A stretch of DNA of 64,000 nt from Nitrospirae bacterium JdFR-86 (GTDB lineage Bacteria; Nitrospirota; Thermodesulfovibrionia; Thermodesulfovibrionales; JdFR-86), in NCBI GenBank assembly GCA_002011815.1, contig MTOV01000015.1:197785-261784 (forward strand). Direction: 5' to 3'. The first letter of the stretch is position 1, and every line of letters starts with the position of its first letter. The position numbers and the translations under genes were made by a program. The notes beneath the pieces were generated by a model that saw nothing but the letters and a program-made list of their open reading frames with translations, did not search any database and was not told the DNA's origin. Shown piece by piece: positions 51,065 through 54,851 of the stretch.

Positions 51065-51522
51065 ATTCGTCATCTCCATTATAGAGTTATGATTGTGGGC
51101 TCTGCGTCCCTTTGCTCAAGCAGAGTATATTTTACCAGAAACGGCAAGGGCAGGCAGGACGCGAACAACGCGAACAGGGTCAACCGACCCTAACTATTTG
51201 AAATCAAAAGCAAAAACCGTGGTTGGCATTTCAGGACGCGAACATAAAAAACAGGCTCCGTCTTCTAAGCCATTTATCCTATGACCGTCTTTTGTAGTAA
51301 GGCACCACCCCGCCGGACAAGTCCAAAATCCCCATAGACAATCACAACTCAGAATTTAGTCAAAACTCACAATTCGAGAAAGTATATAGCTACTGCTTTA
51401 CAATCTCGTCAAGAAGCAAACTCACAACGCATAGTACCCTTAAGGTAAAAATAGGGCTTATACTAGTTGCATTTTCCACGTGAAGCTATTAATATTTTCT
51501 AGAAAATTAGGAGGTTGAGAAC

Positions 51523-52293
51523 TTGGGTCATATTAGATTAGGACGATTGCCTAAACGAAAGAACTGGATACAGGTCTGCGAACTCTTATCTTCAGAATCT
51601 ATAAATTCACAAGCTTTAGCTGTTTCTATATCCAAAGCGGCTCAGAATAGTCTTTTACGGGATGAAAATCAGAGAGGTCTCTTTCAGACTGTTAGATATC
51701 TTATTAGACTTGTACAAGCATCTCGAACTGAAGACTTTAGCGGGGCTCTTAAAGATATAGGTATAGTTTTTGACCAGGAAGAATCGGGAATGGTTCTGCT
51801 CGGTCACATTTTAGAAAAAATAAAAGATGATATCCACCAAAATAAAGGGAACTCCCATCTTGATAGTATTGCATCTACAGCATTTCAAGAGACTCTTACA
51901 AAAACTATCCACCAATACGCTCAAACGCTTTTCGGCTGTTCAATTGAAGATGTAAGAAGTGCTTTTAAACGTTATTCTTCCAAAAATAAATTTGGAGAGA
52001 TAGCTCGTTTGCTTTTCAGTACTTACCTCACAAGAATATTCCAATATACAATTGACCGAGCAATTTCTGAGAATGTTGGAGTAGGTAAGAAATTTAATGA
52101 TGTTAACAGTGTTTTAGAGTTTCAAAAAGCTATCAAAACTTATTGTTGGGATATAAGCAAAATAGTCGAAGAATACTCAGGAGGGTGGTATTCAAAACAT
52201 GAATGGGAGGGAACCCTTTCGGATGCTGAAATAAAACGGTTCACCAGTTACGCCTTAAAAAAGCTATTAAGTGAAATCAACGAAGATAGATGA
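51523..52293 (+). CDS. Uncharacterised protein, first gene of two-gene cassette
   Basis: 256-aa ORF with AGGAGG RBS before a TTG start; start overlaps none, end overlaps the next gene by 4 bp (translational coupling); no recognised domain. Confidence 0.8.
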   Translation: MGHIRLGRLPKRKNWIQVCELLSSESINSQALAVSISKAAQNSLLRDENQRGLFQTVRYLIRLVQASRTEDFSGALKDIGIVFDQEESGMVLLGHILEKIKDDIHQNKGNSHLDSIASTAFQETLTKTIHQYAQTLFGCSIEDVRSAFKRYSSKNKFGEIARLLFSTYLTRIFQYTIDRAISENVGVGKKFNDVNSVLEFQKAIKTYCWDISKIVEEYSGGWYSKHEWEGTLSDAEIKRFTSYALKKLLSEINEDR

Positions 52294-54140
52294 GTAATAC
52301 ATTGCTATGCATATGTGAAGGCGCTCCACAGCCTAACATTGTATTCGATAAAACTATTCATTTATCTCATCTTGGTACTAATGCGAATATTCGGCTTGGA
52401 ATAGAAGACTATTACAATAATCTTGCAGGTAAACTTGATGATATATCTAAAGACCTTTTGAGAATTGCAGCATATATTTATGTAGCAGATACATCAGTGA
52501 GCAGGGGGGGTGATGCAGATATTTGGGGGAAAAATTGGCGGAGACAATTTCACTTAGCTATTCCTGTGTTGCTACCAGATATTTGGAACGATTCGACAGT
52601 TAAAGACCTATTGAAAAGTGTAGTTGATTTTTTAACTGAAGACTCTTTTGAATTCACTTTTACACAATGGCAGGATCCAATACGACAAACATTTCTAAAT
52701 TTATTTAAAACACCTAATGAAGGAATTGGAGCTGATTCAGTTGTTTTATTTTCTGGAGGATTAGATTCATTATATGCTGTTGGTAAGCTTACCGTTACTG
52801 AAAAAAGAAGGCCTCTCCTAATAAGTCATCTAAGTACCAATAAAGTAGTATCTCGACAGCGTTCTATTATTCAGGCAATCAAGAACCATCATAAGTCTAG
52901 TACTGACTGGTCTTTTCCTCATTGGGCAGTACGTATTAGTCGTATGAGAAGTGAGGGGAAAGAAAGAACTCAAAGAAGTCGCTCATTCCTTTATGCAACA
53001 CTTGGGGTTACAGCGGCTCATGCTTTAAATGTTTCCGATGTATTTCTTAGTGATAATGGTATTGTAAGTATTAATCTTCCGCCTTCTTCTCAAACTGTTG
53101 GGGCTATGGCTTCGAGAACTACCCACCCAAAATTTATATCAAATTTTAACACTCTAATGGAAAAAATAGGCTTACCAAAGGTGAAGAATAGCCTATTGCA
53201 TTTAACAAAGGCTGAGGTTGTAAGCGGCTTACGTAACATTGGGTTTGATAATCTTATTCCATTAACTGTATCCTGTGCACGAATACATGGTATGTCGAAA
53301 TTCCAACCGCATTGTGGTACTTGTACACAATGTCTTGATAGACGATTTGCCACTATTTATGCAAATTTAGAAGCTCAAGACCCTCCGGAACAATATGTAA
53401 AGGATATTTTCAAAGATTCTATAGATACTCTATATGACAGAATGCATGCTGAAAATTTAATCCGTCATTGCATCAATTTGCGAACCTTGTCTATTGAATC
53501 TTTTCTTGAGATATTTCCAATGGTGTGGGATTGTGTGGATTTATTTGATAATCCAGAAGAAAAAATTCAAGAGCTTTATGATCTTCATCAACGTTATTCA
53601 GAACAGGTCTTACAGGCAATTAAAATAAAGCAAGGTGAGCTTTTTAATGATTTTGTGAGTGGGATAATATCAAGGGAGAGCATATTAGGTCTTATTGGGA
53701 GCGGTGACCACCTGAAAACATCTATTGATAGAATCGCTACAGAGCTGGGTGATTTGTTTGCAAGAAGACTCCCGATTGTCTTCCAGACAAAGAAACCAGC
53801 AAGAGAAAGAGATGTTCAAGATGCAGCACAGGCACTTTTATCTGAGTTTAGCGAAAATATTCAACGTGAAGCTCCACAAGTCAGCTATAGTGTTGTAAAC
53901 AGACGACCTGACTTTTCAAAAGATAGATCTCAACTATTTATCGAAATGAAGTTAGTTAAAGCTAAAAAAGATGTTAGCAAAGTGATAGATGAAATATCTG
54001 CTGATATAAGACCATACTTAGATCATAGTAGAGGTATTCTTTTTTGTATCTACGATACTGACCGCAATATTGTTGATGATGATAAGTTTAAAGAACCATT
54101 TAAGAATGACACGAATGTGTTTATAAAAATAATAAGATGA
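52290..54140 (+). CDS. QueC-like PP-loop protein with C-terminal PD-(D/E)XK nuclease-like motif
   Basis: PP-loop VVLFSGGLDSLYAVGKL; QueC-like zinc motif SCARIHGMSKFQPHCGTCTQCLDRR; C-terminal RRPDFSKDRSQLFIEMK (D-x10-E-x-K). Confidence 0.8.
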   Translation: MSNTLLCICEGAPQPNIVFDKTIHLSHLGTNANIRLGIEDYYNNLAGKLDDISKDLLRIAAYIYVADTSVSRGGDADIWGKNWRRQFHLAIPVLLPDIWNDSTVKDLLKSVVDFLTEDSFEFTFTQWQDPIRQTFLNLFKTPNEGIGADSVVLFSGGLDSLYAVGKLTVTEKRRPLLISHLSTNKVVSRQRSIIQAIKNHHKSSTDWSFPHWAVRISRMRSEGKERTQRSRSFLYATLGVTAAHALNVSDVFLSDNGIVSINLPPSSQTVGAMASRTTHPKFISNFNTLMEKIGLPKVKNSLLHLTKAEVVSGLRNIGFDNLIPLTVSCARIHGMSKFQPHCGTCTQCLDRRFATIYANLEAQDPPEQYVKDIFKDSIDTLYDRMHAENLIRHCINLRTLSIESFLEIFPMVWDCVDLFDNPEEKIQELYDLHQRYSEQVLQAIKIKQGELFNDFVSGIISRESILGLIGSGDHLKTSIDRIATELGDLFARRLPIVFQTKKPARERDVQDAAQALLSEFSENIQREAPQVSYSVVNRRPDFSKDRSQLFIEMKLVKAKKDVSKVIDEISADIRPYLDHSRGILFCIYDTDRNIVDDDKFKEPFKNDTNVFIKIIR

Positions 54141-54327
54141 ATTTCTAACATATAATTTGATTAGGCTTCGGTGAAGACTTCCCATGCAAAAATTTAAAGC
54201 CTCTATTATCCGTACATTAAGCCTCTTAGAAGATGGATACTTTGAAAGGCAAAAAACACTCTTCTCCTATCCCCCAATAAAATCCTAAACAAATCCAAAT
54301 ACTCAAAATCCTGTAACCCCTCATCGA

Positions 54328-54597
54328 CTATGGATACCGTCTGTAAGCTTCTTTGCGATGTCGTATGTGATAGACCGTTACCGTTTTATTTTGCACATCA
54401 ACCTGATAAATTACCCGGTATTCCCCAATGCGAATACGGTAGCTCAGTTCAGAGCCTTGAAGTTTTCTGCATTGAGCAGGAAAGGGGTTTTCTGAAAGGG
54501 CTTCTATCGCAGTCAGGATTTGCGGTATATGTTGACGGTCAAGTTTTTTGAGGTCGCGTTCAGCCGATGTTTTCCAGAGAAGATTAAATGATACCAT
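54328..54597 (-). CDS. RelE/ParE-family toxin
   Basis: NLLWKTSAERDLKKLDRQHIPQILTAIEALSENPFPAQCRKLQGSELSYRIRIGEYRVIYQVD...YHIRHRKEAYRR. Confidence 0.92.
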   Translation of the reverse strand: MVSFNLLWKTSAERDLKKLDRQHIPQILTAIEALSENPFPAQCRKLQGSELSYRIRIGEYRVIYQVDVQNKTVTVYHIRHRKEAYRRYP

Positions 54598-54775
54598 CTG
54601 CCTGGAGTTTCTTTTTTAACTCGTCAAGGCTGATGGTTGGCTCGTCTTTACGTTCAGCTATAACGGCGAGGTCGTGTAGGTCTTCGAGAAGTTCTTCATA
54701 TTCGTCAAGTGGCAGGACTACGGCAATTTTTTTGCCAGAATCATCTATCATATATCTTTCATGTAATTTCTCCAT
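54584..54775 (-). CDS. Phd/YefM-like antitoxin
   Basis: Small acidic protein, KIAVVLPLDEYEELLEDLHDLAVIAERKDEPTISLDELKKKL; overlaps toxin start by 14 bp. Confidence 0.85.
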   Translation of the reverse strand: MEKLHERYMIDDSGKKIAVVLPLDEYEELLEDLHDLAVIAERKDEPTISLDELKKKLQADGII

Positions 54776-54851
54776 TGCATTCCTCCTGATTTCTGTAGCT
54801 TATTTTATCACATATAGTAATTCACGGAAAAGAAATGTACTAGGCAGCCCC

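Follow-up and report, generated by a model that had tools for sequence, protein, structure and literature searches.

Qat and type IV CBASS are the closest described systems to the locus analyzed here. QatB and QatC alone can defend against some phages; the active site of QatC is essential (the SSAA mutant abolishes Qat defense), as is the N-terminal glycine of its partner, which is the proposed modification site and whose G2D substitution also abolishes defense (PMC13279940). In type IV CBASS, 7-deazaguanine is attached to a glycine exposed by removal of the initial methionine (PMC13279940). Roles have been shown or proposed for the QatC residues discussed below, as they have for the Tyr/Asp residues that read the nucleobase in type IV CBASS (PMC13279940). 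The QatC modification reaction has not been reconstituted, even with P. aeruginosa QatC, and the paper names both this reaction and its route to restriction as open questions (PMC13279940).

The locus lies within a 64,000-nt stretch of DNA (the window; all coordinates are window positions). It consists of ORFs of 256 and 616 amino acids that overlap by 4 bp (ATGA), located where the first-pass annotation had placed them. Its homologies, pairing, Met-Gly start, intact active-site residues, domain swaps and insertion were computed here.

51509–51514, plus strand: Shine-Dalgarno sequence AGGAGG, 8 nt ahead of the TTG codon at which the QatB-like gene starts (sequence).
51523–52293, plus strand: QatB-like gene, 256 aa, TTG start, all-alpha, probable substrate/sensor subunit (ORF, AlphaFold, Foldseek, hhalign).
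51523–51567, plus strand: N-terminal tail MGHIRLGRLPKRKNW of the QatB-like protein, with Gly2 as putative modification site (alignment).
52290–54140, plus strand: QatC-like gene with fused nuclease, 616 aa (ORF, PADLOC, NCBIfam).
52416–53432, plus strand: QatC core domain, aa 43–381 (PADLOC, NCBIfam, alignment to 9zee_B, Foldseek to 9y01_B).
52752–52769, plus strand: PP-loop SGGLDS, aa 155–160 (S, G, G, D and S invariant in 49 members).
53112–53129, plus strand: SRTTHP motif, aa 275–280, counterpart of the loop with T278/T280 in P. aeruginosa QatC (alignment to 9zee_B).
53274–53333, plus strand: Cys4 zinc motif C329-x12-C342-x2-C345-x2-C348 (invariant, 49/49 members).
53805–54116, plus strand: DpnII/MboI-type PD-(D/E)XK nuclease domain, aa 506–609, predicted effector (PF18742, 5.4e-15).
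51080–54851, no strand: insert of low GC content that separates leuC from leuA and carries the pair and a ParE-type toxin-antitoxin (GC, spacing of leuA and leuC in relatives).

The 616-amino acid protein is a QatC homolog with a C-terminal nuclease, as three methods agree. It matched the QatC models of PADLOC (4.4e-62) and NCBIfam (7.5e-64; 216 bits, not reaching the equivalog cut-off of 280 bits), and its sequence matches in the PDB included the QatC chains 9vlk and 9zee (~1e-35). The best Foldseek match of its AlphaFold model (pLDDT 88.8) was QatC from the QatB-QatC complex (9y01_B; E 8.8e-22, TMt 0.77), and next in the ranking came Cap9 bound to CdnD with nucleobase modification (9nto_B). 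The Qat structures used for comparison were PDB 9y01, 9y02, 9zee and 9vlk. The PP-loop and QueC-type Cys4 motif that had been read from the DNA proved sound: the residues of S-G-G-x-D-S and all four zinc cysteines are invariant across an alignment of 49 family members, in which the ATP-contact residues are also fully conserved and R229 and R231 are kept. The hydroxyl pair S275/T277 is the counterpart of T278/T280 in P. aeruginosa QatC; position 275 is S or T, and position 277 T or S, in 49/49 QatC-like members. The protein shares the PP-loop and the Cys4 zinc fold with canonical QueC but falls far under the QueC equivalog cut-off (TIGR00364, 16.8 bits versus 150.3). A solitary queuosine gene was considered and rejected, as the host genome has its own separate canonical QueC elsewhere (C18:10010–10654).

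The sequence of the 256-amino acid partner had no significant match in Pfam, PADLOC, NCBIfam, PHROGs or PDB sequences. The QatB models of PADLOC and NCBIfam were among those without a match; as controls, the classical QatB of Calothrix scored 2e-95, and a divergent classical QatB (L025) likewise gave no score. A phage tail tape-measure identity was rejected, its score being under the cut-off. The QatB signal came solely from fold and profile-profile comparison. AlphaFold, given 64 homologs as input, produced an all-helical model (pLDDT 90.7) with a 14-residue tail of lower confidence. QatB (9y01_A) was its top Foldseek match out of 350,542 PDB chains, with a probability of 1.00 against ≤0.25 for the runner-up among the 50 matches listed; we weigh this match by rank and probability because its E value was only 0.078. 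Alignment of the QatB-like profile with 15 classical QatB proteins by hhalign gave 90% over 126 columns. Model and profiles together suggest that the 256-amino acid protein is most likely a very distant QatB. Structure prediction and profile comparison, the checks proposed at first pass, thus returned a QatC fold for the larger protein and a QatB fold for the smaller. As a system, the pair escapes PADLOC and NCBIfam: no model matches its QatB-like protein, and its QatC-like protein is under the NCBIfam cut-off.

The pair resembles Qat in having a QatC-like domain with an N-terminal extension, PP-loop, S/T pair and zinc site, and in having just upstream an all-alpha QatB-like partner with a Met-Gly start and a tail carrying a conserved Pro and Trp. 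It differs in the absence of the QatA ATPase and the TatD protein QatD, in an extra C-terminal domain (nuclease, TIR, protease or winged-helix), in a QatB-like protein that escapes QatB models, and in its tail, which is ~14 amino acids (MGHxRLGxLPxxxxW) rather than the 30–90 amino acids of the MGTS tail of Qat (consensus MGTSxSYGGP..LVPPW in classical QatB). The first-pass annotation had taken the pair to be unlike any named system, a view that mapping onto one would undercut. This view stands as regards the missing QatA and QatD but not the core, which is QatB-QatC: the pair is homologous to the QatBC core and is, by definition, not Qat. By analogy, it probably works like that core.

Where methionine is followed by glycine, the methionine is removed and Gly2 exposed. 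Every complete start in the QatB-like family (102/102) is Met-Gly, as 100 MGH, one MGN and one MGT. In 64 alignment rows, which were picked for a GH start, M1, G2 and H3 are invariant, followed by R5, G7, L9, P10 and W15; given that choice of rows, the 102/102 count is the unbiased statement. In those rows, conservation over a 10-residue segment of the protein peaks at the first 10 residues (1 of 247). Selection for Met-Gly did not enter the GTDB genome scan or the second viral scan, since their queries were, respectively, a C-terminal pattern only and QatC; the N-terminus was part of the query in the first viral QatB scans.

Type IV CBASS likewise combines a QueC-fold enzyme (Cap9) with a partner that starts Met-Gly (CdnD). 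N-terminal deazaguanine conjugation is shown there. The new family differs in lacking a CD-NTase or Cap10 (PADLOC found no CD-NTase with Cap9/Cap10 in the window), in the unrelated fold of the partner, and in having S or T at both positions of the Tyr/Asp nucleobase reader (49/49 members). Analogy with these two systems suggests that the modification target is likely the N-terminus of the partner protein and not nucleic acid. The earlier proposal that the PP-loop enzyme modifies nucleic acid or protein would accordingly be kept as to modification and dropped as to nucleic acid.

The same residues can be read without covalent modification. The QatC-like domain would then be an ATP-driven scaffold whose pocket holds the QatB-like tail, and the nuclease would be turned on when nucleotide is bound or lost upon infection. 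Such a scaffold is consistent with the fact that QatC catalysis has never been reconstituted and with substrate-reading residues that differ in QatC from those of Cap9 and QueC (PMC13279940), the S/T pair being kept in the new family. We consider it unlikely, as full conservation of the PP-loop, zinc site, ATP-contact residues and Gly2 exceeds the needs of a scaffold, and the published SSAA and G2D mutants lose Qat defense.

The C-terminus of the 616-amino acid protein, described at first pass as nuclease-like from an EMK motif, belongs to the DpnII-MboI family (PF18742, aa 506–609, 55.7 bits versus a cut-off of 27). It has the nuclease fold and the E..PD..ExK residues of that family. Apart from one truncated copy, the 22 REase-type members all retain E506, D541, E552 and K554. 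The DpnII-MboI REase domain occurs also with pPIWI_RE and Argonaute systems; in the new family, it differs in being fused to a QatC-like enzyme.

Among the 96 members long enough for a census of C-terminal domains, 22 carry the nuclease (the window pair, the Leptospira copy and those of 20 bacterial genomes), two a TIR domain, two a trypsin-like protease, three another domain, and nine no assignment. The remaining 58, mainly from viral contigs, are winged-helix, a label based on a PF00486 match in seven members and otherwise on clustering, with the second largest cluster (25 members) labeled by the look of the sequence only. The QatB-like proteins and QatC cores of a TIR-bearing and a nuclease-bearing member (L134 and L155) are 56% and 59% identical, and those of a protease-bearing and a nuclease-bearing member (L146 and L136) 50% and 57% identical; the C-terminal parts have no meaningful similarity in either comparison. 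Some relatives with 50–60% identical cores therefore differ, as judged from sequence, in the C-terminal domain only, making this domain modular. By eye, the His, Asp and Ser of the protease and the Glu of the TIR domain are apparently intact. As the same core bears a TIR or trypsin-like domain in relatives, it looks like a switch able to drive different outputs. The most likely effector is the nuclease domain, which is fused onto the C-terminus of the QatC-like protein, and the 256-amino acid partner is most likely a substrate or sensor, not an effector. This departs from the first-pass proposal of an effector or adaptor role for the partner, which appears instead as a distant QatB with an invariant Met-Gly.

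Membership of the nuclease in the DpnII/MboI family also invites a restriction-modification-like reading, in which self DNA would carry a modified base supplied by the PP-loop enzyme and the nuclease would cut DNA that lacks it, much as dpd DNA modification is fed by QueC-family enzymes. We find this very improbable. PADLOC detected neither a TGT-like DpdA nor Dpd restriction genes among the 53 window genes, and a DNA-modification system was rejected for the absence of DpdA; the QueC score given above is far too low; and close relatives swap the effector for a TIR or protease domain, for which a DNA base mark would be useless.

Scans of viral contigs and GTDB species genomes yielded 109 distinct QatB-like members or loci from many bacterial phyla and from phages. 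A first genome scan with the single 616-amino acid sequence as query had returned nothing, and no relative was found in INPHARED phage records. A QatC-like gene lies immediately downstream of the QatB-like gene in 109/109 loci (108 by script; L066 exceeded the distance limit). Recurrence as a unit in 109 distinct loci argues that the pair is not due to chance, in keeping with the compact two-component unit proposed earlier. A Leptospira plasmid bears counterparts of both window genes, with identical domain content. Genes for QatA, a TatD-like QatD, a cyclase or queD/E/F were not observed next to the window pair, again as first reported, and QatA and QatD were found near the pair in 0/109 loci by model scan (median flanks ~5 kb). 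The control for QatD was positive in 14/18 classical loci and that for QatA in 6/18, many classical loci being too short (4 kb) to contain QatA. KAP proteins of the host genome lie on other contigs only. In the tree, the family stands apart from classical QatC (SH-aLRT 99, the only support measure, with four outgroup rows and long branches). We found no paper on the two-gene form in the openly accessible literature, most subscription journals being outside this coverage.

Two further plasmid loci were observed. A haloarchaeal QatC-like protein of 479 amino acids on a Natrinema plasmid (L028:4354–6215) is preceded by a 141-amino acid gene; with neither QatA nor QatD annotated there, it is possibly another reduced Qat form. 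A truncated QatC-like member on a Rhodobacteraceae plasmid (L032:5806–7266) lies beside IS3 transposases and is probably a broken copy.

The window pair occupies an insert between leuC and leuA (named by sequence). GC across the pair is 0.35–0.37 compared to ~0.48 outside; leuA and leuC are 16–103 bp apart in five relatives and 3.8 kb apart in the window; and the QatB-like gene has one other carrier in 399 sampled genomes of the phylum. Because of the low GC, the adjacency of leuA and leuC in relatives and this rarity, the pair was most likely acquired horizontally. Nothing convincing was found in the way of target-site repeats at the insert borders. The insert also carries a ParE-type toxin (54328–54775, minus strand; PF05016, 6e-14) and a small antitoxin-like ORF. 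At the same junction, relatives G105 and G004 (L162, L163) have other single genes, for a radical-SAM-like and a chemoreceptor-like protein, which marks the junction as a variable site.

A neighborhood survey, another of the checks proposed at first pass, revealed that besides the constant co-occurrence of the two genes, chromosomal copies adjoin DISARM, BREX, AbiE, restriction-modification and SIR2 genes. The 109 neighbor genes of chromosomal copies matched 378 PADLOC models (including DrmD, BrxH, AbiEii and restriction enzymes) compared to 8 for the 53 background genes of the window, a contrast to be read as a direction and not a rate because the models are redundant. The SIR2 and PglZ neighbors were confirmed by Pfam.

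Winged-helix pairs in viral contigs (L033, L040, L046, L067, L080, L092 and others) lie amid DNA-metabolism genes. Nearby are a Sak4-like AAA_24 ATPase (16 loci), DUF669 (9) and a small terminase (8), and a D5-type primase gene is found downstream, from ~300 bp, in 17 loci. An N6/N4 DNA methylase with a fused ParB-like N-terminus is encoded near the pair in L093 (1151–2440) and 15 more phage-contig loci. In another phage contig (L030:4931–7656), three genes are directly upstream of the pair, one for a C5 cytosine methylase and another of Vsr type. As most viral members carry the winged-helix domain in place of an effector and lie amid phage DNA-metabolism genes, function may differ between clades.

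The viral abundance of winged-helix forms (58/96), near primase, Sak4-like ATPase, DUF669 or terminase genes, raises the prospect of a mobile-element module for competition or gene regulation. Winged-helix forms would be phage regulators or agents of superinfection exclusion, and nuclease forms a side branch acting between elements. This strikes us as doubtful for the family as a whole, since nuclease, TIR and protease forms are in bacterial genome contigs of many phyla (the Leptospira plasmid copy excepted) and often adjoin defense genes; superinfection exclusion would, besides, itself be defense.

The best reading is that the pair belongs to an undescribed QatBC-type defense family with a fused effector. 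For the window pair itself, we favor with moderate confidence a two-gene anti-phage system, composed of a QatB-QatC core with its effector fused in cis. We infer its modification, cue, activation and defense by analogy with Qat and type IV CBASS. The QatB-like protein would be translated and its methionine removed, exposing Gly2. The QatC-like domain would bind its partner and use ATP at the SGGxDS loop to couple a small molecule, in activated form, to the amine of Gly2; in type IV CBASS, Cap9 does this with 7-carboxy-7-deazaguanine, and the same is proposed for QatC. The modified complex would be a sensor or switch whose C-terminal domain is released or clustered by a cue from infection, and the DpnII/MboI-type domain would then cut DNA, so that phage replication stops or the cell dies. 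Deazaguanine may not be the small molecule, since hydroxyl residues take the place of the Tyr/Asp pair that reads it. Consistent with this changed pocket, a clear QueE-like protein was found in only ~20/34 host genomes (which may be incomplete), so that the tie to host QueE is not tight and a 7-deazaguanine precursor not guaranteed.

The QatBC core exists alone, across many phyla and in phages. An evenly balanced prospect is that QatBC is a general immune switch beyond qatABCD, in which an N-terminally modified sensor and its modifying enzyme have nuclease, TIR or protease outputs plugged in, and which phages have co-opted with a DNA-binding domain. If so, the fused forms would give QatBC-type systems their first identified effector. 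In these forms, how N-terminal modification leads to the effector is directly testable, because the output domain is attached to QatC and one mutation can disable it. The pair may thereby show how Qat-type immunity connects to a killing effector.
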